Below, piece after piece: positions 1 to 12,131 of a stretch of 64,000 nucleotides of DNA. Under the pieces are notes generated by a model that was given only the letters and a program-made list of their open reading frames with translations, was not told where the DNA came from and searched no databases. The stretch covers positions 1,602,539 to 1,666,538 of the forward strand of contig NZ_LT615227.1 in assembly GCF_900096755.1 (NCBI RefSeq), read 5' to 3'. Positions within the stretch are counted from its first letter, which is position 1; each line of letters opens with the position of its first letter. The position numbers and the translations under genes are program-made. This DNA comes from Polynucleobacter necessarius. GTDB taxonomy: Bacteria > Pseudomonadota > Gammaproteobacteria > Burkholderiales > Burkholderiaceae.

Positions 1-28
1 AAAAAAAACCGCCATATAAAGCGGTTTT
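1..28 (-). terminator. rho-independent terminator of leuA
   Basis: Inverted repeat AAAACCGC (5-12) / GCGGTTTT (21-28) with an 8-base loop. On the minus strand it is followed by eight T residues (1-8). It lies about 40 bases after the leuA stop and would end the ilv-psd-pssA-leuA transcription unit. The window edge cuts any further context. Confidence 0.75.
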
Positions 29-66
29 GATTTAATTTCCCTTATAAATCAATAACTTAGCTATAT

Positions 67-1614
67 TTAAGGGGGCATTTGGGCATTTAACTTGGCCTGG
101 CTGGGATCGTGGAGCTTATTTAAGGCCGATAAATAGGCCTTGGCAGAAGCCGCAATGATGTCGGGGTCAGTACCAACGCCGTTCACAATGCGCCCACCTT
201 TGGTCAATCGAACAGTTACTTCACCCTGGGACTGAGTGCCTGAAGTAATTGCGTTTACGGAATACAGCAATTGCTCTGCCCCGCTTTTGGCAATACCTTC
301 AATTGCGTTCAAACTGGCATCAACCGGTCCATTACCCTCCGCTTCTGAGCTGATTTCTTTATCACCCATGCGGAAAGTCACGCGTGACTTAGGGCGCTCC
401 CCAGTTTCAGAATGCTGGCTTAATGAAATAAATTTGTAGTGCTCGCCCCCTTCAGCCACTGCTGAATCTGACATGATGGCAATGATGTCTTCGTCAAAAA
501 TTTCGGATTTTTGGTCAGCCAAAGCTTTAAAGCGTGTGAATGCCTCATTCAAGTCTGCTTCAACTTCAACAGTAATACCCAACTCCTGCAAGCGTTGCTT
601 AAAGACGTTGCGACCTGATAACTTTCCTAAGACTATCTTGTTTGCGGACCAACCCACATCTTCAGCGCGCATGATTTCATAGGTGTCGCGGTTCTTTAAG
701 ATGCCATCTTGGTGAATGCCAGAGGTGTGTGCAAATGCATTGGCGCCAACCACTGCCTTATTGGGCTGAACCACAAAGCCAGTGATTTGAGAAACCAATT
801 TAGACGCCGGGACAATTTGAGTGGCATCAATACCGCAGACCATATCAAAGTAATCTTTGCGCGTACGCAAGGCCATCACAATTTCTTCCAAGGCGGTATT
901 GCCTGCACGCTCACCCAAGCCATTAATGGTGCACTCAATTTGACGAGCGCCACCAATCTTCACGCCAGCTAACGAGTTAGCTACGGCCATACCTAAGTCG
1001 TTATGGCAATGTACAGACCATACGGCCTTATCTGAGTTTGGCACGCGAGTACGCAACGTCTTGATAAATTCACCGTATAACTCCGGGGTTGCATAACCAA
1101 CTGTATCGGGAATATTGATTGTGCTAGCGCCCTCGTTAATGACGGCCTCAACAACCCTGCACAAGAAATCCATCTCTGAGCGGTAACCATCTTCAGCAGA
1201 GAATTCAATATCAGAAGCAAAGTTGCGAGCAAAACGAATTGAGCGTTTGGCTTGCTCCAAGACCCCTTCTGGAGACATGCGCAATTTAACCGCCATATGC
1301 AATGGGCTCGTTGCCAAGAAGGCATGGATACGCTTGGCATTAGCAGTCTGTAAAGCATCGGCAGCGCGTGTGATGTCCTTGTCATTAGCTCTTGCCAGCG
1401 AACAAACAATAGAATCTTTTACCGCAGCAGCTACAGCTGAAATTGCCTGAAAGTCGCCTTCAGAGCTAGCTGCAAAGCCCGCTTCGATAACATCCACCTT
1501 TAAACGTTCAAGTTGACGTGCAATGCGTACTTTTTCGTCTTTGGTCATAGATGCACCTGGAGACTGCTCTCCATCACGCAAGGTGGTATCGAAAATAATT
1601 ACTTTGTCGCTCAT
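67..1614 (-). CDS. leuA: 2-isopropylmalate synthase
   Basis: First committed step of leucine synthesis: condenses acetyl-CoA with 2-oxoisovalerate in the cytoplasm. The N-terminal TIM barrel begins with [12 protein letters not shown] (about residues 9-20, metal and substrate binding) and has HCHNDLG near residue 205. The C-terminal third looks like the LeuA allosteric domain that binds leucine. Length, 515 aa, is normal for the family. I chose ATG 1614 over GTG 1617 because GGAGAG sits 7 bases before that ATG. The gene is intact and last in the ilvBHC-psd-pssA-leuA row. It is preceded by a Leu-rich leader ORF and terminator hairpin, so it is probably attenuated separately from the upstream genes. 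Confidence 0.97.
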
Positions 1615-1670
1615 CACTACTCTCCAATGTGGATACTTATTAAGTTACCGCTTTATTCAATCTCTAAAAC

Positions 1671-1756
1671 AAAAACCCCAGCAATTTGCTGGGGCTGGTA
1701 TGTGGTGGTTAATGGATTCTATTCAGTCTCATCAACTCAGGCCTTACCCGCCCCAA
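1671..1756 (-). promoter_or_regulatory. leuA attenuator: terminator and competing antiterminator
   Basis: On the minus strand CCCCAGCAA/TTGCTGGGG (plus 1676-1694) forms a stable hairpin followed by TTTTTGTTTT, a rho-independent terminator about 57 bases before leuA. A competing pairing is visible: minus-strand TTGGGGCGGGT (plus 1746-1756), at the 3' end of the leader ORF, can pair with ACCAGCCCCAG (plus 1689-1699), which holds the 5' arm of the terminator, with one mismatch and one G-U. A ribosome stalled on Leu codons would leave the antiterminator free. A ribosome reaching the leader stop would cover it. The structures are read by eye. The mechanism is inferred from the known leu/his/trp attenuators. 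Confidence 0.8.
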
Positions 1757-1814
1757 GCTTTAGGCTTAGCGCTAGCAGAAGAAGGCTAGAGAGAAGTGAG
1801 AAATTCACCAACAT
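1737..1814 (-). CDS. leuL: leucine-rich leader peptide of leuA (attenuation leader)
   Basis: A 25-codon ORF (ATG 1814, TGA 1737-1739) between pssA and leuA. Ten of 25 residues are leucine, including four consecutive Leu codons CTT CTT CTG CTA at codons 11-14, then Leu at 16, 18 and 20. It ends 43 bases before the terminator hairpin, and its last codons contain the antiterminator arm. This is the arrangement of a ribosome-mediated attenuator that senses charged tRNA-Leu. No clear Shine-Dalgarno is visible. A TATATT box (plus 1821-1826) ends 6 bases before the ATG, so the leader might be translated from a leaderless transcript. The peptide itself probably has no function beyond translation. Confidence 0.82.
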   Translation of the reverse strand: MLVNFSLLSSLLLLALSLKLGAGKA

Positions 1815-1842
1815 GGAATAAATATACCCGAAAAATAGCTAA

Positions 1843-2673
1843 TTAGCTAAAACGCCGGCCCCGGAGACGTTCCCAGGCCCAAATCACATAACCAGAAATC
1901 GAATACACCACAAACAAACCAAACAAGGTTAAGGGTGGATTAGAGGAAATCAGCACAAAGGTCAGGATCATGAGAACCATGACGCCAAAAGGCACTCGAT
2001 AGCGTACATCCAAGGCCTTACCGCTATAGAAGCGAGCATTGGAAACCATAGTCAGGCCGGCATATACCGCGATAAAGAAGGTAATCCAGGGAATCGCTGT
2101 GTCACGAACCGGAATCTTATTGTCATCGGCCAACCAAATGAAACCAGCCATCAAAGAGCCTGCCGCTGGGCTTGGTAAACCTTGGAAGAATTTCTTATCA
2201 ACAACGCCAGTGTTGACGTTAAAACGAGCTAAACGCAAGGCAGCGCCAGCGCAATAAGTAAAGGCGGCCAACCAGCCCCATTTACCCAAATCTTTTAAGG
2301 CCCACTCGTAAGCAACCAGAGCTGGTGCCACGCCAAATGACACCATGTCAGCCAAAGAGTCGTATTGCTCGCCAAAAGCACTTTGTGTATTAGTCATGCG
2401 CGCAACGCGACCATCCATACCATCCAGAACCAAGGAAGCAAAAATTGCAATGGCAGCAATCTCAAACTGATGGTTCATCGCATTGACAATAGCGAAGAAA
2501 CCACAGAACAATGCAGCGGTAGTAAATGCGTTTGGTAACAGATAGATGCCCTTGCTTCTTAAGCGGGGCTTTTGTGGGTGAAGCTCTTCTACCCAGTCAT
2601 CATCATTGCGATCAACGCGATGACGTGAAAGGCGACTGCGATCTAAACGGCCACGACGGCGAAATGTAGTCAA
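1843..2673 (-). CDS. pssA: CDP-diacylglycerol-serine O-phosphatidyltransferase
   Basis: Integral inner-membrane enzyme that makes phosphatidylserine from CDP-diacylglycerol and serine, the substrate of the Psd encoded just upstream. The CDP-alcohol phosphatidyltransferase signature starts at Asp84 (DGMDGRVAR, then G and two spaced Asp in GEQYDSLAD). About seven hydrophobic segments follow a basic, Arg-rich cytoplasmic N-terminus of about 40 residues. At 276 aa it fits the type II family of proteobacteria. It lies 31 bases after psd on the same strand, so the two are cotranscribed. A short palindrome overlaps its end (TAGCTAATTAGCTA around 1837-1850) with five T after it on the minus strand. 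It is at best a weak terminator. Confidence 0.95.
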   Translation of the reverse strand: MTTFRRRGRLDRSRLSRHRVDRNDDDWVEELHPQKPRLRSKGIYLLPNAFTTAALFCGFFAIVNAMNHQFEIAAIAIFASLVLDGMDGRVARMTNTQSAFGEQYDSLADMVSFGVAPALVAYEWALKDLGKWGWLAAFTYCAGAALRLARFNVNTGVVDKKFFQGLPSPAAGSLMAGFIWLADDNKIPVRDTAIPWITFFIAVYAGLTMVSNARFYSGKALDVRYRVPFGVMVLMILTFVLISSNPPLTLFGLFVVYSISGYVIWAWERLRGRRFS

Positions 2674-2704
2674 TGAATATCCCAGCAGCGAATAATATTT
2701 CGAA

Positions 2705-3352
2705 TCAATCTAAGCCAGGCACACGTGCCAAAGCGGTATTCGTTGCAAACACTTTATCACCAACACTAACCAAAGGCTCAGCAGTTAGGGGCAAATATAC
2801 GTCCACCCTTGAACCAAAACGAATAAATCCGTAGCGCTCACCTGCTTTGAGGCGGTCGCCAACGTGGATGTAGCAAAGAATGCGGCGGGCAATTAAGCCA
2901 GCCACTTGAACCAAGGTCACGGTTTGACCGTTAGCATCTATAACAACGGCGTTACGTTCATTCTCGGTAGATGCCTTGTCTAAATCCGCATTAACAAACT
3001 TGCCAGGGAAGTACTGCACCTCTTTAACCAAGCCATTCACTGCGCTGCGGTTCGAGTGCACATTAAAGACGTTCATGAATACGCTGATCTTGAGCGCTTC
3101 ACGACCAGCATACGGATCGTTGGCATTTTCAACCACAACAATTCGACCATCCGCTGGAGATAAAACCAAATCGCGGCCCAGAGCAGGAATACGCTGTGGA
3201 TCACGGAAGAACTGCAGAACAAAGATAAAGATGATCCAAAGAGGCCATGACCATGCAATGCCACCCAAATAGTGGACTAGCAAAGTCACCGCCCCCACTA
3301 GAGCTAAATGCGGCCAACCTTCTTTCGCAATAATGGGGTGTGGATACATCAT
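2705..3352 (-). CDS. psd: phosphatidylserine decarboxylase proenzyme (short form)
   Basis: Converts phosphatidylserine to phosphatidylethanolamine at the inner membrane. It is a self-cleaving pyruvoyl enzyme. The likely processing site is Gly180-Ser181 in [11 protein letters not shown]; Ser181 would become the pyruvoyl group of the small subunit of about 35 residues. One or two hydrophobic helices lie at residues 14-45. At 215 aa it is the compact form common in bacteria other than enterobacteria. It sits between ilvC and pssA, a common Burkholderiales order, and is intact. Confidence 0.95.
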
Positions 3353-3415
3353 CTTTGTTCTGAGCCTTTTTTTAATGAACTTCTATTAATTTGATGCGTA
3401 CTTCTGAGTACTTAC

Positions 3416-4474
<1,059 letters not shown>

Positions 4475-4485
4475 TTAATAAAAAA

Positions 4486-4977
4486 TTAAACCTTGAGGAT
4501 GCGTTCGCCACGACCAATTCCAGAGCCGCCCGAACGGACAGTTTCCAGAATCGATGCGCGATCGATCGAATCAATAAAGGCATCCAATTTGACACCATCA
4601 CCAGTTAACTCGATGGTGTAACTCTTGTCAGTCACATCAATGATGCGACCGCGGAAGATATCAGTAGTGCGCTTGAGTTCTTCACGTTCCTTGCCTACAG
4701 CCCGCACCTTAATCATCATGAGCTCGCGCTCAATGTGTAGGCCTTCGCTCAAATCAAACACTTTCACTACTTCAACCAAACGGTTTAAGTGCTTGGTAAT
4801 TTGCTCAATAACGTCATCAGACCCAAAGGTCACGATCGTCATGCGAGATAAAGAAGGATCTTCAGTAGGCGCAACACTCAAGGTGTCGATGTTGTAACCA
4901 CGAGCCGAGAAAAGACCTACTACGCGTGACAATGCACCCGGCTCGTTCTCAATGAGTACAGAAATAATATGTCGCAT
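4486..4977 (-). CDS. ilvH: acetolactate synthase small (regulatory) subunit
   Basis: Regulatory partner of the catalytic subunit encoded immediately upstream. It binds valine for feedback control. The N-terminal ACT domain begins MRHIISVLIENEPGALSR, followed by a C-terminal dimerisation domain. At 163 aa it has the standard length. Its start codon overlaps the last base of the ilvB stop (position 4977), indicating translational coupling, which suits equal subunit supply. Confidence 0.97.
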   Translation of the reverse strand: MRHIISVLIENEPGALSRVVGLFSARGYNIDTLSVAPTEDPSLSRMTIVTFGSDDVIEQITKHLNRLVEVVKVFDLSEGLHIERELMMIKVRAVGKEREELKRTTDIFRGRIIDVTDKSYTIELTGDGVKLDAFIDSIDRASILETVRSGGSGIGRGERILKV

Positions 4978-6764
4978 TAGAGATCCTCGCTACCCAAAAG
5001 CATTTCAGTAATACCCTTGCCCGCTTGAACCATTGGCCAAACGTTTTCTTCTGGGTCGGTCTGGAAATCCATGAATACGGTGCGATCCTTTAAGCGAATT
5101 GCTTCTTTAAGGGCGCCCTCAACATCAGATTTCTTTTCAATACGCATACCAACGTGACCATAGGCTTCAGCCAACTTCACAAAGTCTGGCAATGAATCCA
5201 TATAGGAGCTGGAATAACGCTTGTTATAGGTAAGTTCTTGCCACTGACGAACCATTCCAAGGTAACGGTTGTTCAATGACACGATTTTTACCGGTGTGTC
5301 GTATTGCTTACAAGTAGATAGCTCTTGAATACACATCTGAATAGAGCCTTCACCAGTAATAGTGAAAACATCTTTATCAGGGAAAGCCTTCTTGATGCCC
5401 ATGGCGTATGGCAAGCCAACGCCCATGGTGCCAAGACCACCAGAGTTAATCCAACGACGTGGTTTATCAAACTTGTAGAACTGTGCAGCCCACATTTGAT
5501 GCTGACCTACGTCAGAGCAAATGAAAGCATCACCGCCGGTGAGCTCCCACAACTTTTGAACAACGTACTGCGGCTTAACAATTTGAGAAGTTTCGTCGTA
5601 TTTCAGGCAATCTTTTTTGCGCCACTCATTAATCTGGTCCCACCAGGCGGCAACTTTATCGCCATTCTTGCGTGGGCCAGCAGCTTTGAGCTGAGCAGTC
5701 AGCTCTACCAAAACTTCTTTGAGATTACCTACGATTGGAACGTCTACCTTAACGCGTTTAGAAATAACGGAAGGATCAATATCAATGTGAATAATCTTGC
5801 GTGGATGACTTGCAAAGTGTGCAGTGTTTCCGATAACGCGATCATCAAAACGCGCGCCGATAGCAATCAAGACATCACTGTGTTGCATTGCCATATTGGC
5901 TTCATAGGTACCGTGCATACCGAGCATGCCCAAAAACTGTGGGCTTGTTCCTGGGAATCCACCTAAACCCATCAGGGTGTTAGTTACTGGATAGCCGAGC
6001 AAGTCTGCGAACTCTTTTAGCTCAGGCGCTGCATCAGACAAAATCACACCACCACCTGTATAGATGTATGGGCGCTCGGCCTCTTGCAATAAAGCAACTG
6101 CCTTACGAATCTGACCGCTATGACCCTTAACTACAGGGTTATAGGAACGCATTTCCAGAGTCTCTGGATAAACAAATGCGCCTTTGGCCGCAGATACGTC
6201 TTTAGGAATATCAATCAACACAGGACCAGGGCGACCTGTCTGTGCAATATGGAAAGCCTTCTTCAAAACCAATGGAAGATCTTTAACGTCTTTCACGAGG
6301 AAGTTGTGCTTTATAACTGGGCGTGTAATACCAACGGAATCTGCTTCTTGGAAGGCATCTTCACCAATAGCGTATGTTGGTACGTTGCCGCTGATGATCA
6401 CCATTGGAATGGAGTCTGTGCAAGCAGTCGCAATACCAGTAACGGCATTAGTTACACCGGGACCAGAGGTCACTAAGGCAACACCAACCTTACCGGTTGC
6501 GCGCGCATAGCCATCTGCAGCGTGAACTGCTGCTTGCTCATGGCGAACAAGAATATGTTCAAACTTGTCCTGCTTAAAAATTTCGTCATAGATAAAGAGA
6601 ACGGAGCCGCCTGGGTAACCCCAAACGAATTCAACACCCTCTTTGTGCAATGCATGCACGAGCATCTCTGCGCCAATCATTTCTGGAGGCGCTGCATCAT
6701 TATTTGTATTTATTGATTCTTTATTAGCTTTAGTAGCTAAAAATTCGGCGCTGCTTGTATTCAT
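4977..6764 (-). CDS. ilvB: acetolactate synthase large (catalytic) subunit
   Basis: TPP- and FAD-dependent condensation of pyruvate with pyruvate or 2-oxobutyrate. The N-terminal TPP-binding domain has the catalytic Glu in RHEQAAVHAADGYARATG (about residue 77). The C-terminal TPP/Mg motif starts GEGSIQM and ends SLNN. At 595 aa it carries a poorly conserved leader of about 28 residues before the conserved start. I kept ATG 6764 because AAGGAC lies at a suitable distance upstream. It is the first gene of the operon. It could equally be labelled ilvI. No amino-acid-rich leader ORF is visible in the upstream region. Confidence 0.97.
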   Translation of the reverse strand: MNTSSAEFLATKANKESINTNNDAAPPEMIGAEMLVHALHKEGVEFVWGYPGGSVLFIYDEIFKQDKFEHILVRHEQAAVHAADGYARATGKVGVALVTSGPGVTNAVTGIATACTDSIPMVIISGNVPTYAIGEDAFQEADSVGITRPVIKHNFLVKDVKDLPLVLKKAFHIAQTGRPGPVLIDIPKDVSAAKGAFVYPETLEMRSYNPVVKGHSGQIRKAVALLQEAERPYIYTGGGVILSDAAPELKEFADLLGYPVTNTLMGLGGFPGTSPQFLGMLGMHGTYEANMAMQHSDVLIAIGARFDDRVIGNTAHFASHPRKIIHIDIDPSVISKRVKVDVPIVGNLKEVLVELTAQLKAAGPRKNGDKVAAWWDQINEWRKKDCLKYDETSQIVKPQYVVQKLWELTGGDAFICSDVGQHQMWAAQFYKFDKPRRWINSGGLGTMGVGLPYAMGIKKAFPDKDVFTITGEGSIQMCIQELSTCKQYDTPVKIVSLNNRYLGMVRQWQELTYNKRYSSSYMDSLPDFVKLAEAYGHVGMRIEKKSDVEGALKEAIRLKDRTVFMDFQTDPEENVWPMVQAGKGITEMLLGSEDL

Positions 6765-6962
6765 TTTCTTTCGTCCTTTGCAATTTTCGGCAAAAAATTG
6801 TTTGGTCTGTTCTGTCTCCTGCTTATGGCCTGAGTTCGAACGGCGCTGCTACCGGAAAAAACCACTTCACTTCTTGAGTGAGATTCTAGGTAGTAAGCCC
6901 TATATTCTATAGCAGTCCCCTAAAATGAATGAATTCTTACCGATTCAGGTCTAATCCATTGC
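6765..6962 (-). promoter_or_regulatory. divergent ilvB / sigma-factor promoter region
   Basis: A 198-base gap between divergent genes. On the minus strand TATAGAAT (plus about 6904-6911) is a good -10 candidate for the ilv operon, about 140 bases before ilvB. The long leader holds an imperfect hairpin TCACT/AGTGA (plus about 6868-6882), with six T residues about five bases downstream, and a second hairpin CAATTTT/AAAATTG close to the start. No leader ORF rich in Ile, Val or Leu was found, so translation-coupled attenuation is not supported here. The first hairpin could be a weak intrinsic pause or terminator. The sigma gene promoter must share this gap. Confidence 0.4.
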
Positions 6963-7535
6963 ATGGCATCAGCCCAAGAATTATCTGACTTTTTGAGTAG
7001 TGTCGAGCAGCGCGCTTTTAAGCAGGCTGTCTACGCCGTGCGTGATGATGACGCCGCGCTCGATATTGTTCAGGATGCCATGATTAAATTGGCCGAAAAA
7101 TATGGGGACAGACCCGCCGCTGAGCTCCCACCAGTGTTCACCAGAATTCTCCAGAATCGTATTCATGACTGGTTTAGACGCCAGAAAGTCCGAAATACCT
7201 GGGTCACCCTGTTTTCAAATATGGGTAAAAAAGCCGATGAAAACGATGATTTTGACCCCCTGGAGTCACTTTCAGCCCCTGACGATAGTGAAATTCACCA
7301 AGATGATGGGGCTCAAAAACTAGAACAAAGCCAGCTTTTACAGGCTTTGGAGTCAGAAATATCTAAATTACCTGTACGTCAACGAGAAGCCTTCCTGAGG
7401 CGTTATTGGGATGAGCTAAGCATTACGGAAACCGCTAAAGCCATGAGTTGTAGTGAAGGAAGTGTAAAAACTCATTGTTCTAGAGCCACCCAAACCCTAG
7501 CTAAAGCATTGAAATTAAAAGGAATTACGCTGTGA
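6963..7535 (+). CDS. ECF-type RNA polymerase sigma factor
   Basis: Alternative sigma factor of 190 aa. Region 2 covers about residues 10-75 (core binding and -10 recognition, with DIVQDAMIKLAEKYG and IHDWFRRQK). An acidic linker follows, rich in Asp and Glu. Region 4 HTH is at about 135-182 (LPVRQREAFLRRYWDELSI, then CSEGSVKTHCSRA). It is the first gene of a tight plus-strand operon. It overlaps the next gene by four bases (GTGA), and that next gene is a single-TM protein, the usual position of an anti-sigma factor. Regulon unknown. Intact. Confidence 0.9.
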   Translation: MASAQELSDFLSSVEQRAFKQAVYAVRDDDAALDIVQDAMIKLAEKYGDRPAAELPPVFTRILQNRIHDWFRRQKVRNTWVTLFSNMGKKADENDDFDPLESLSAPDDSEIHQDDGAQKLEQSQLLQALESEISKLPVRQREAFLRRYWDELSITETAKAMSCSEGSVKTHCSRATQTLAKALKLKGITL

Positions 7536-7993
7536 AAGACTTTGATAAGCAACCAACCGACGTCCAGGCCGATCAATTTGGCCGGACCAGTGCCGCCCTG
7601 CTTTCTCAAGGCGCTCACAAGCTGCCGGCAAATATTAAAGATCGACTTCATGCGGCTCGCATGAAAGCCCTCTCTGTCAGAAAGCCTGAAAAAGCCCTGG
7701 TTCGCAAACCAATTTTTGCAGGATCTAGCGGCACTTGGACTTCTGGCTCTAATGGCGTTTGGGATACCGTTGGTTGGGTAGCCCCATTAGTGGTTTTGGT
7801 TTTTGGCCTTATTGGCATCGCTCAGTGGCAAGATGATTCCCGTATTAACGATATCGCTGAAGTGGATGCGGCATTGTTATCAGATGACGTTCCACCAGAT
7901 GCCTATGCTGATAGCGGATTTATGGCCTTCCTAAAAAATGGTCCTCTATCCGATTCTGGCGATAGCGCTACCGACTCTGCGCTCAGTAAGTAA
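7532..7993 (+). CDS. DUF3619 family membrane protein, putative anti-sigma factor
   Basis: 153 aa, GTG start overlapping the sigma-gene stop (GTGA). Residues 1-80 are polar and cytoplasmic in character. One TM helix lies at about 84-101 (GWVAPLVVLVFGLIGIAQW), and an acidic C-terminus would lie outside. Order and topology match the DUF3619 genes found behind this sigma factor in Burkholderiales. An anti-sigma role is inferred from coupling and topology only. There is no zinc-binding anti-sigma motif. The downstream gene starts 20 bases after its stop. Confidence 0.8.
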   Translation: MKDFDKQPTDVQADQFGRTSAALLSQGAHKLPANIKDRLHAARMKALSVRKPEKALVRKPIFAGSSGTWTSGSNGVWDTVGWVAPLVVLVFGLIGIAQWQDDSRINDIAEVDAALLSDDVPPDAYADSGFMAFLKNGPLSDSGDSATDSALSK

Positions 7994-8012
7994 TTCTTTC
8001 GACCTTCGCCGA

Positions 8013-8630
8013 ATGCTTGCGCAAAAACATACATACAAAGCAAGTTTATTGGTGCTACTTGCTACGGCATGTTTTGCAATCAATATTTCTTCAGCTCTTG
8101 GACAGACATCGCCGCCGCACGGCAAAGCTACCGCCATTCCTGAAAAGAAACCGGATGGCACATGGGATAGCCTAAAGCCCGCTCAGCAAAAGATTCTTGC
8201 TCCACTTGAGGATGATTGGGACTACATGCTCCCAGATAGCCGCAAGAAGTGGATGCAGGTTGCCAATATTTATCCCAAGATGAGTGCTCAAGATCAAGAG
8301 CGTCTGCAGTCAAGAATGACTGGCTGGTCAAACCTTTCGCAAAAAGAACGTCGCATTGCCCGTGAAAATTATTTAAGCAGTCTCAAGTTCCCGGCCGAGA
8401 AAAAGGCTGAAGCTTGGAGTGCCTACCAAAAGCTCAGCGATGAGCAAAAAAAGAAGTTGGCCGAAACTGAAGCAAAGAAAAGGCCTAGCGCTACAAATGC
8501 TCCAACCCTTCAGCAGCATCCCATATCTTCAAAAGCGACCTTACCGCCAGCTGCAGCAACCGTACCAAGCCCACCAGCACCTGCCGAGAGCTCAGATTCT
8601 ACTGCTGAATCTGGCTCTAGCAGCAATTAA
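8013..8630 (+). CDS. DUF3106 family secreted protein
   Basis: The reading frame is open from 7938, but I place the start at ATG 8013 because the product then begins with a clean signal peptide (MLAQKHTYKASLLVLLATAC, cut near residues 30-32). The earlier start would overlap the DUF3619 gene by 56 bases. The mature part (about residues 45-150) has short Trp-, Gln- and Lys-rich helices (DDWDYMLPDSRKKWMQVA), typical of DUF3106. It ends in a Pro/Ala/Ser-rich, probably disordered tail. Periplasmic location is likely. Biochemical role unknown. It belongs to the sigma operon. Confidence 0.8.
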   Translation: MLAQKHTYKASLLVLLATACFAINISSALGQTSPPHGKATAIPEKKPDGTWDSLKPAQQKILAPLEDDWDYMLPDSRKKWMQVANIYPKMSAQDQERLQSRMTGWSNLSQKERRIARENYLSSLKFPAEKKAEAWSAYQKLSDEQKKKLAETEAKKRPSATNAPTLQQHPISSKATLPPAAATVPSPPAPAESSDSTAESGSSSN

Positions 8631-8656
8631 TTTACCCTTCAAATAAAAGCAGATTC

Positions 8657-9193
8657 ATGACGCCTGCTGAATTAGACATTCTGCCTTCACCTCAATTTTG
8701 GCGACGCGTTTCTTGCTCGCTCTACGAACAATTGGTTTTGTTGGGCGTGATCGCCCTTACTTTCTTAGTACCCAACCTGGCCCTAGGAATTTTATTTGGC
8801 ATCTCCCTGCCGAGCTGGCTTACCTTTATTTATCTCTACGCAGTACTAGGCATTTATTTTGTTTGGTATTGGACTAAATCTGGACAAACATTGGCAATGC
8901 AAACTTGGCGTGTACGTCTTATCGGTAAAAATGGGTACACAGTCAATCGTCGCCAAGCTATTTGGCGCTATGTATATGGCTCACTTTGGATTGCTCCCTG
9001 CGTTTTATTGCAATGGGCTTTTCATTTAGAAAAGTGGCAAATTATTGAAATGCTGTTTACGGTGGCATTGTTTTTTTGGCCACTGAGTATTTACCTTGAT
9101 CGCACAGCACCTCTGTTGCGTCAGAGCCTTGCAGACCGATTGGCCGGCACCCGCCTCGTAGAACTCCCTAAGAACCTAGTAACTCTCTCTTAA
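8657..9193 (+). CDS. RDD family membrane protein
   Basis: 178 aa with an RDD domain. The conserved Arg lies in the first helix region (FWRRVSCSLYEQLVLLGVIA). Further TM segments are near residues 45-75, 110-125 and 135-150, and the conserved Asp is in the last third (LADRLAGTRLV). It is the fourth gene of the sigma operon, 26 bases after DUF3106. The function of RDD proteins is mostly unknown; some have been linked to ion exchange. Its last 18 bases overlap tail-to-tail with the decayed permease on the other strand. Confidence 0.85.
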   Translation: MTPAELDILPSPQFWRRVSCSLYEQLVLLGVIALTFLVPNLALGILFGISLPSWLTFIYLYAVLGIYFVWYWTKSGQTLAMQTWRVRLIGKNGYTVNRRQAIWRYVYGSLWIAPCVLLQWAFHLEKWQIIEMLFTVALFFWPLSIYLDRTAPLLRQSLADRLAGTRLVELPKNLVTLS

Positions 9194-10828
9194 GCATTCG
9201 ACTGCAGTAGCACTCTGAATTCTTTTCTGGGATCGATATCCAGCTGCTAGACTTGCAGCAACGCCAAAGAGCACACCCATCATCAAGGCTTGGCCAAAAG
9301 CATTGAACTCAATTTCCATGACGTAACGCCCTAGCAGCCAAGCAGCTAGCCCTGACGCTAAGCCTGCCAGCACACCCGATATCAAGTCCACGACTAGCAG
9401 TTCAAAGCGAGAGATACTTGCCAGCACAGCTCGTGAAGCACCAACCGCTTTTAGCAATGCAGCATTTCGATAGCGCTGATCTTGAGTTGCCATCATAGCT
9501 GCCATCAGAACCAAGATTGCGGCTGATAGGGTTAGACCAAACAATAGGCCCAAGGCGGCAGATAATTTATTCAGCACATCCTGTATTTGGCCCAAAGAAG
9601 CAGAAACATCCACCACCGTTAAGTTTGGATAGTCCTGGCTAAGTTGAAAATCCAAAGAGCCCACGCTTGGAGCTTGATAGCAGGAAGTGATCCACGATTG
9701 CGGCAACGAGCTCAGTTGAGCAGGCGGCATGATGACAAAGAAATTCACTCGCATTGAGCCCCAATCCAATTTACGCAATGAAGTAATGGGTGCAGTGATC
9801 GATTCGCCTGCCACCTCAAAAGTTAGCGTATCGCCCAGCTTGAGCTTCAAGGTTTTGGCGATTCCCGTTTCCATGGAAATTTGCGGTGCATCACCCTTAA
9901 TCCACTCACCAGCAAGCAGGCGATTACCCGCTGGCAATTGATCCGTATAGGAGAGATTGAATTCTCTATCCACTAGACGGCGGGCATTGTCTTCGGCAAA
10001 ATCGTTTGGCAAAACGTCACGCTCATTAATGGCGGTAAGGCGGCCGCGAACCATGGGATAAAAAGTAGGCGTTGATACTCCAGCATCCACCCTCTAGAGT
10101 CTTCAAGATTTTCTGCTTTTGATCACCTTGGACATTAATCATGAAGCGATTGGGGCTATCAACAGGAATACTTCCTTGCCAGGTACTCAACAAGTCCTGA
10201 CGCAACAACAAAATGATCACCAAAGCCATCAAAGCAATTCCTAAGGCTGTAATTTGCATGACGGCATAACCGGATTGCCTAGCTTGAGCAATGATGGCAA
10301 AGTTACTAGTACGCCAACGTGAAAGCAACAACAAACAAACCCAAGCAGTAGATGCAAATAGGACTATGGCCCCACTAAAACTTAAACCAGTCCAAAGTGC
10401 CAACCTCCAGTCACGAGCAGCAATGCCAATTAATGCCGCACAGGTAATAAAAGCCATTAATACCAACCAAGCTTTTGCAGTTTGAAAAGAGGCGAATTCC
10501 TTACGAATAAGGCGGATCGGCGAAACCTTAATTAAACCCAATAAAGAAGGTCCTGCAAAGCCTAGCAACAGAGTCCATGCAAAGAGAACGCTCCACAATG
10601 CAGGCGCAGGTGAAATGATTGGTAAATTCGCAATCAGTAATCCGCCTAAGAGCACTATCAATAGATGTTGGACTAAGTAGCCCAATAGCAATCTAAAGAT
10701 GGCCGATATCAGATCATCCGACCCAGCTAGAAGAAGTCGATAAGTCGCCCTTACTTCCCAATCCAATTAAACCTGTAGCCGGCAAATCTTCTAAGGACAT
10801 CATTGCGCGTGGGGCAAAGTTCATAAAA
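9176..10828 (-). pseudogene. FtsX-type ABC transporter permease (YbbP-like), 5'-deleted and frameshifted
   Basis: C-terminal part of a large MacB/FtsX-type permease. One frame (9176-10090) has the periplasmic core and three final TM helices, ending AVECLRESY. An upstream frame (10026-10766) has four or more TM helices. A shorter third frame (to about 10828) reads MNFAPRAMMSLEDLPATGLI, a segment typical of the periplasmic domain before the second membrane block. The frames join at about 10075-10090 and about 10750-10765, so there are at least two indels. Roughly the first third of the gene is missing and the frame runs straight into an mlaF-like start. The intact protein would help extract or move lipids or lipoproteins across the inner membrane. 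Confidence 0.82.
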
Positions 10829-10958
10829 TCACAAAGATCTCGCCGTTATTCACTGTGAAGTTGAGATCCTTCATCAGTACATTGGATCCATACCCTACGG
10901 TAAGATTTTTTACATCAATGGCGCATGTGCTTGCTGGAGTGGTAACTGGTGTATTCAT
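10821..10958 (-). pseudogene. mlaF-like ABC ATPase, N-terminal remnant
   Basis: ATG 10958 overlaps the stop of the mlaE-like gene (TGATG), as in intact mlaE-mlaF pairs. Forty-five codons remain, including the typical ABC start (AIDVKNLTVGYGSNVLMKDL and NNGEIFVIL). The reading stops exactly where the Walker A motif should follow. The next bases belong to the FtsX-type permease. This is a deletion junction at about 10821-10828 that removed most of mlaF, the start of the permease gene and whatever lay between. No ATP-binding residues remain. Confidence 0.85.
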
Positions 10959-12131
10959 CAGAAACCCGTCTTGTAGGAAATAACGGCGAAGATGCCGTCA
11001 ACAATCACAATCATCACAATACTGCTAACCACAGCACGGGTTGCAGAGATACCTACGGCAGCTGCCCCGGTTCCTGTCTGCATACCCCTCAAGCATCCCA
11101 TCGCCGAAACAACGACACCAAACATCGTCGCCTTTACTAAACCGGAAAGCACGTCTTCCACATCAACCGCACTAATCATGCCGTTGTAAAAGTTAATAAA
11201 TGGAATGCCATAAATTAACATCGTTAGCATCGATGCGATAACGCTCACGATGTCTGCAAAAAGAGTTAAGATGGGCGCAACCAAAATGCCGGCCAACACC
11301 CTTGGCACCACCAAGAATCGAATCGGACTAAGGCCGCCGGGTTACCAAGGCATCCACTTCGCTGTTGACTGTCATCGTGCCAATTTCTGCAGCAAACGCA
11401 GCGGATGAACGGTCAGCCAATAAGATGGCGGTGATTAAAGGGCCCATCTCACGAACAATCCCAAGTGCTGCCAGGGGGCCTACAAAGGTGGTTGCCCCAA
11501 ACTGCTTCATGCCAATAGCCGCCTGAAAGGACAGAATCACACCGATCAAAAAGGAAACCAAACCAATGATTGGTAAGGCTGCAATCCCCGCCTCTACTGC
11601 GGCATTCACAAAATCACCCCAACGCACTTGTTTAATGTGACGAATAGACCAAACTAAGTCTGCTGCTAGATGCCCCGTAAATGTGATTAAGCCTTTGGCA
11701 TCATCTAATAGATTTTGCGTAGCCATACCAGCGCTGACCACAAAACTTCTTTTGGGCTTTTCTACTGGAGCCGGGAATAAATTTGCAATCGGATCAAATT
11801 CTTTAAGCAATGGCTGATAGCGAGTATCAAGGCCCTGCACTTCAAATTTAGCGCCAGCCTTTTGCTGCGCCTCCTGAACGCCGATCAAGAATGCAATGCC
11901 GGCACCATCTAAAGAAGCAACTTGAGATGCATCAAAAACTAATGATTTACTTTTTGGGTCGCCTTGCTTTAACCAGGCATCTTGCGATTCACGAATGTGA
12001 GACCACGTGCCACCCAATGAATAGACATTTACGGTCCCGCTCAGAGTCACTTTTGCAGTCGCGTTGTCTGGCTGGGACCAAACCGCAACCGGGGACTCTG
12101 AAACAGGGGAAATGGCTGTAGAAATACTCAT
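10958..12131 (-). pseudogene. STAS-MlaE lipid transport permease, frameshifted
   Basis: The first frame starts at ATG 12131. It has a STAS-like domain of about 110 residues (KSKSLVFDASQVASLDGAG), then an MlaE permease domain with TM helices, up to NSEVDALVT. The rest continues in another frame (10958-11314; LSPIRFLVVPRVLAGILVAP to the end DGIFAVISYKTGF). The shift is at about 11325-11338 and looks like one extra base in the CCCGGCGG stretch. The family moves phospholipid between outer and inner membrane together with an MlaF ATPase. Here that partner is also destroyed, so the transporter is almost certainly lost. Confidence 0.88.

Follow-up and report, generated by a model that had tools for sequence, protein, structure and literature searches.

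The leu leader of E. coli (leuL) encodes a leucine-rich peptide before leuA and forms protector, antiterminator and terminator helices. Leaders that begin at the very end of their RNA have also been described. In S. meliloti, the AUG of the leaderless attenuator leader trpL is the 5' end of the RNA (PMC7298713), and in Streptomyces lividans the leaderless Leu leaders LeuL1 and LeuL2 precede leuA and leuS (PMC8079986). The actinobacterial LEU element contains an ORF with a Leu run before leuA (PMC1262725), and LeuL of Campylobacter jejuni is a 28-amino acid leader before leuABCD with five Leu codons, all of them rare (PMC3847290). No description of a leuA attenuator in betaproteobacteria was found among the matches listed in the accessible parts of the open-access literature, and a 2004 study cited in PMC6123439 may cover part of this ground. 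The literature considered on attenuators also takes in PMC3766115, PMC3032703 and PMC5784534, and the word leucine is absent from the main text of PMC2965389.

In this report, we describe the region between pssA and leuA in a stretch of 64,000 nucleotides (the window, meaning the whole stretch of DNA that was analysed), whose nearest named relatives are Polynucleobacter (LeuA identity 98%). The leader ORF, its Leu run, the mutually exclusive pairings, the terminator and a conserved -10 box, drawn from the sequence and from comparison with relatives, lead us to conclude that leuA is very probably controlled by a ribosome-mediated leucine transcription attenuator. The features of the region are as follows.

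1843 to 2673, minus strand: pssA, the upstream gene; its stop (1845-1843) is 28 nt upstream of the leader ATG
1826 to 1821, minus strand: -10-like box TATATT, separated from the leader ATG by 6 nt (1820-1815)
1814 to 1737, minus strand: leader ORF, MLVNFSLLSSLLLLALSLKLGAGKA, 25 codons with 10 Leu; TGA stop at 1739-1737
1764 to 1772, minus strand: region 1, the 5' arm of the protector hairpin, within the Leu codons of the leader
1745 to 1758, minus strand: region 2, GCTTGGGGCGGGTA, within the last leader codons; it serves the protector as its 3' arm (1758-1750) and the antiterminator as its 5' arm
1706 to 1739, minus strand: spacer hairpin (1739-1729 with 1715-1706) between the leader stop and the terminator
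1687 to 1700, minus strand: region 3, the 3' arm of the antiterminator (1700-1688) and the 5' arm of the terminator (1696-1687)
1674 to 1683, minus strand: region 4, the 3' arm of the terminator
1666 to 1675, minus strand: U-rich tail of the terminator, TTTTTGTTTT
67 to 1614, minus strand: leuA, 2-isopropylmalate synthase, the controlled gene; ATG at 1614 and an in-frame GTG at 1617

Four consecutive Leu codons occupy positions 11-14 of the leader. This run stops about 5 codons before region 2, whose arm covers approximately codons 19.7 to 24 and ends about 2 codons before the stop. The intrinsic terminator (1696-1674) consists of 10 pairs and a 3-nt loop and folds at -16.9 kcal/mol (z -4.0), a stability equalled in 0 of 200 dinucleotide shuffles. 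In the antiterminator, 1758-1745 is paired with 1700-1688; the folding energy of the whole 71 nt from 1758 to 1688 is -26.8 kcal/mol (z -3.8), again with 0 of 200 shuffles as stable. The spacer hairpin has a folding energy of -6.5 kcal/mol (z -2.6), and the protector hairpin (1772-1764 with 1758-1750; -11.8 kcal/mol, z -2.3) completes the classical four-part attenuator. Three sequence features of this class, a Leu-rich ORF before leuA, an intrinsic terminator and a mutually exclusive antiterminator, are thus all present, the antiterminator being marginal in the window alone: when the leader end was shuffled with its dinucleotides kept, 12 of 200 sequences gave a duplex as good as that between the arm and the terminator, taken by itself. 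Conviction on this point comes from the comparison across the genus.

The gene order ilvB-ilvH-ilvC-psd-pssA-leuA was verified by NCBIfam models. These results bear out a first-pass annotation of the region, which had placed leuA last in a row ilvBHC-psd-pssA-leuA and had reported a 25-codon ORF with 10 Leu, four of them in a row, a terminator with a T-run, and an antiterminator arm at the end of the leader; folding of this stretch was a check that it had proposed. A branched-chain leader was not seen by eye in front of ilvB (6765-6970). At another locus (L278, G000:C1:1349400-1350150), leuC begins 18 nt past the preceding ORF, which we take to resemble citrate synthase; a leader would not fit in this space, so leuC is without a switch of the leuA type. 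Elsewhere in the window, 35458-59196 on the minus strand holds a series of long same-strand ORFs, with PATR, YDG or MBG_2 repeats in four of the five that were scanned. Such repeats are of a type seen in large surface or passenger proteins, and the row may be a single giant gene in pieces or several genes.

The start of the leader was analysed in 190 upstream sequences, of which 102 contain an ORF that satisfies the Leu part of the rule given below and was picked without a promoter condition; 71 of these ORFs have a single ATG. A -10-like box is located 6-10 nt 5' of the ATG in 61 of the 71, with just 2 boxes elsewhere within 60 nt. A Shine-Dalgarno-like motif precedes none of the 71 leaders; for leuA starts the figure is 53 of 71, and for random windows 3%. 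The leader start in the window has no such motif either. The -35 region of the window is weak, its best match agreeing at 3 of 6 positions. Where relatives have no strong terminator, 49 of their 54 distinct promoters carry TTG 17 nt upstream of the -10 box; at the same spacing it is found in 0 of 68 distinct Polynucleobacter promoters (4 at a spacing of 18) and in 1 of 27 from the Comamonadaceae group. Since the -35 element is weak in Polynucleobacter, the case for an own promoter and a leaderless start there rests on the -10 box and the missing Shine-Dalgarno. Because the box lies 6 nt before the ATG and no Shine-Dalgarno is present, the ribosome probably reads the leader on a leaderless mRNA that comes from leuA's own promoter, with the RNA start predicted at or next to 1814; leuA, though last in the row, would probably then have a promoter to itself.

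This arrangement bears on RNA that reads through from pssA, which the first-pass annotation had considered subject to the same switch. Such RNA would indeed meet the terminator, but its control by leucine is doubtful given the lack of a Shine-Dalgarno and the -10 box 6 nt upstream. A leader start of this kind is probably poorly used on a longer RNA, so that readthrough RNA would simply terminate, for the most part whatever the leucine level. If the leader is leaderless, the ribosome would meet it first on leuA's own RNA and the readthrough RNA would be insulated.

In the proposed switch, the RNA would begin at or next to the leader AUG and the ribosome would read it as a leaderless mRNA. When charged tRNA-Leu is scarce, the ribosome would stall in the Leu run (codons 11-16), leaving region 2 free to pair with region 3, and leuA would be transcribed. 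When leucine is ample, the ribosome would reach the stop codon and cover region 2; region 3 would then pair with region 4, and RNA polymerase would stop at 1675-1666. If the leader is not translated, the protector hairpin would hold region 2 and the terminator would prevail as well. With the usual ribosome footprint, a stall in the Leu run exposes region 2 and a ribosome at the stop hides it. A ribosome held further along, at Leu codon 18 or 20, would already mask some of region 2, so the early Leu codons must be the control codons.

The rare CUA codons matter in the leu leader of Salmonella, and CUA is read well only by tRNA-Leu(UAG). Five of the longest 10 of the 36 genomic tRNA matches are tRNA-Leu, and one of them has the anticodon UAG. 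CTA makes up 36.5% of the Leu codons in 14 Polynucleobacter leaders versus 5.2% in ORFs of at least 300 amino acids (15 loci), and 50% versus 1.5% in the Comamonadaceae group (26 loci); at least one CTA is present in all 40 of these leaders (14 Polynucleobacter and 26 from the Comamonadaceae group). The claim that CUA is rare in this genome itself was softened, as CTA accounts for 10.3% in the window-wide ORFs, a mechanical set that may include spurious ORFs; with this background the enrichment in the window leader taken singly is not significant (P 0.07).

Conservation was examined in 81 genomes drawn from the window's genus, of which 78 were read (75 together with the window, L082 and L083); G175, G176 and G222 were left out of the count for want of a match to an intact leuA 5' end. 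Each of the 78 genomes read has a Leu-rich leader, a -10 box and a terminator that reaches at least -9 kcal/mol. An RNAalifold consensus of 17 sequences recovered the protector and spacer hairpins together with the terminator and the outer part of the antiterminator. Over its 33 pairs, 98.6% of cells are paired and both sides have changed in 4 pairs; 0 of 500 shuffles match either the paired-cell or the double-change value, in a control that ignores kinship, and shifting the partners along the alignment abolishes the pairing. For the antiterminator, the arms were anchored on GGGG and CCCC, which gave 18 distinct arm triples from 93 sequences. The five positions outside the core form 63 standard pairs where permutation gives 54.6 on average, and 1 of 5000 permutations was as high as 63, kinship being ignored here too. 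At the first of these positions, 9 triples have C:G, 6 have U:A and 3 (L237, L258, L261) show a broken pair, and the second is usually unpaired (paired in 2 of 18).

The end of the leader peptide, LGAGKA, is well kept across the genus. Of the 41 distinct leaders with an LGAGxx end, all use GGG for the first Gly of the arm and 40 use GGT for the second. One Polynucleobacter leader (L206) ends LGRVRPELMR instead, as though frameshifted within the arm, and retains the terminator. The duplex formed by a locus's own arm is equalled in at most 10 of 200 shuffles at 17 of 43 terminator-type loci, which outside Polynucleobacter include only L060 and L071; most Comamonadaceae arms are individually non-significant against shuffles. 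Swapping arms between lineages proved weak as proof of co-evolution because every arm is GC-rich (Comamonadaceae leader arms score -11.9 when paired within their own group and -10.8 when paired with Polynucleobacter). The alignment of relatives that the first-pass annotation had suggested thus turned up compensatory changes and conserved Leu codons, and both the ORF and the two pairings, whose loss in relatives would have spoken against its reading, are kept. Its main claim, that leuA has its own charged-tRNA-Leu switch, is supported by this comparison. The Rfam search that it had also suggested matched no leader family to the window attenuator: in window positions 1-12000, Leu_leader (RF00512) gave no match (cmscan, E up to 5), the sole listing being a chance sR20, and in 18 relatives it gave none at E up to 1, where the five matches of any family were all below their gathering scores. 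At L263, Phe_leader scores 28.7 bits (gathering 55, E 0.29) at 222-358, over a Polynucleobacter leuA attenuator.

The wider spread of such leaders was assessed by a fixed rule that requires an ORF of 12-50 codons with an ATG or GTG start, at least 4 Leu including a run of at least 3, within 420 nt of leuA, and a TANNNT box with at least 4 of 6 matches 5-11 nt before the start. Besides the window, 45 of 80 named loci and 53 of 110 upstreams from across the order satisfied the rule, against 0 of 191 reverse complements and 0-1 of 191 sequences in each of ten shuffled sets. The 110 order-wide upstreams are the best 110 of 146 genomes with a LeuA match (150 drawn), with L081 being the window itself, and their positives cover 27 of the 51 families drawn (hand count). 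Among the loci that the rule misses are a truncated contig, copies of leuA that stand in other contexts, and leaders caught by a relaxed rule alone, which is positive in 58 of 80 named loci but also in 4-12 of 191 shuffled sequences. The idea that such leaders are restricted to this order was rejected: in a class-wide sample of 114 genomes, from which 28 loci were fetched and 3 removed for lack of a match to the leuA start motif, 11 of the 25 readable loci from other orders have an ORF satisfying the Leu rule, with a -10 box nearby in 5 of those 11.

Of 99 leaders (the window and its duplicate L081 both counted), 53 have a terminator behind them that reaches at least -9 kcal/mol, versus a mean of 8.75 in dinucleotide shuffles, and many order-wide Leu leaders are without a U-tract terminator. 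With a cut of -14 for a strong terminator, 54 loci are without and 44 are with one. Leaders at the loci without (L112-L187 and others) often end LLLRxAR, and their promoter reads TTG-17-TATA(T/G)T. All 54 of these loci have a hairpin of 4 or more pairs behind the Leu run, which is weak evidence since the same holds for 32.3 of 54 when shuffled. The first 20 nt past their leader stop contain 46% C and 8% G. Masking of the leuA Shine-Dalgarno by this post-stop tract was unsupported (mean z +0.44 in the 54 loci and +0.52 in the 44). These relatives are possible candidates for Rho-dependent attenuators.

Several other explanations of the locus were weighed. The attenuator could be real and yet not leaderless, with an RNA that comes from the ilv promoter or from a start within pssA and a leader start codon that is used internally. 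The weak -35 of the predicted promoter in the genus and the end of pssA just 28 nt upstream would suit this, and we regard it as unlikely in view of the box that 61 of 71 leaders have 6-10 nt ahead of their ATG, the motif-free starts of all 71 and the TTG conserved in 49 of 54 promoters of relatives without a strong terminator. It is far harder to accept that the structure is merely the terminator of pssA with a Leu-rich ORF next to it by chance. The terminator does sit 3' of pssA, and membrane-type sequence yields Leu-rich ORFs, but the leader is present in 78 of the 81 genus genomes drawn (3 not read), the rule finds next to nothing in reverse complements and shuffles, and the pairing between leader and terminator covaries; conservation and covariation rule such a coincidence out for practical purposes.

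Control might also be exerted by translation or by Rho and not by the intrinsic terminator, as the C-rich, G-poor stretch after the stop in the 54 relatives without a strong terminator could suggest. This is very improbable for the window, since a terminator is found in every Polynucleobacter genome read and pairing between the post-stop tract and the leuA Shine-Dalgarno is no better than shuffled. The terminated leader RNA or its peptide could conceivably have an extra role in trans, like rnTrpL and peTrpL of S. meliloti (PMC7298713), and the well-conserved LGAGKA end would fit a functional peptide. The RNA arm accounts for that end, with its Gly fixed as GGG, and peptide ends are wholly different between lineages, so we consider such a role quite improbable.

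The attenuator of leuA thus remains the preferred reading for the window. We tentatively suggest, with more doubt than confidence, that the leaderless leuA Leu leader is an old betaproteobacterial element, found also in some other lineages of the class, which often has a GC hairpin behind the Leu run and a C-rich, G-poor post-stop stretch in place of a strong U-tract terminator, perhaps acting with Rho, and that the form with an intrinsic terminator was later re-engineered in Polynucleobacter and Comamonadaceae. If this is true, the termination mechanism changed beneath a conserved leader. The terminator-less relatives allow intrinsic attenuation to be compared in nature with a possibly Rho-dependent form that has the same leader. 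For betaproteobacteria, including freshwater Polynucleobacter, the locus would provide a defined site at which leucine controls leuA, and no Rfam family matches it.

The mechanism is a textbook one and leaderless leaders are known elsewhere; for the wide distribution of a probably leaderless leuA leader, no description was found among the matches listed in the open-access literature. The locus resembles leuL of E. coli and Salmonella (Leu_leader), where a leader peptide and three helices precede leuA, as summarised in PMC6123439. It differs from these in the missing leader Shine-Dalgarno, in the -10 box 6 nt from the ATG and in that leuA stands apart from leuC. In C. jejuni LeuL, the Leu codons are C-terminal and relatives were predicted via a ribosome binding site (PMC3847290). 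The defining marks of the LEU element are a pseudoknot and a Leu run that pairs with the leuA Shine-Dalgarno (PMC1262725), whereas an intrinsic terminator and an antiterminator are found here, Shine-Dalgarno pairing having been checked for the post-stop tract only. The leuA leader of S. lividans is without a typical Rho-independent terminator (PMC8079986), while that of the window has a strong one. S. meliloti trpL (PMC7298713) responds to tryptophan, precedes trpE(G) and belongs to an alphaproteobacterium, unlike the locus described here, whose leader would be leaderless in the same way if its predicted start is right. The position of the box and the absent Shine-Dalgarno fit the leaderless attenuator leaders of the S. 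meliloti trpL and Streptomyces LeuL type.
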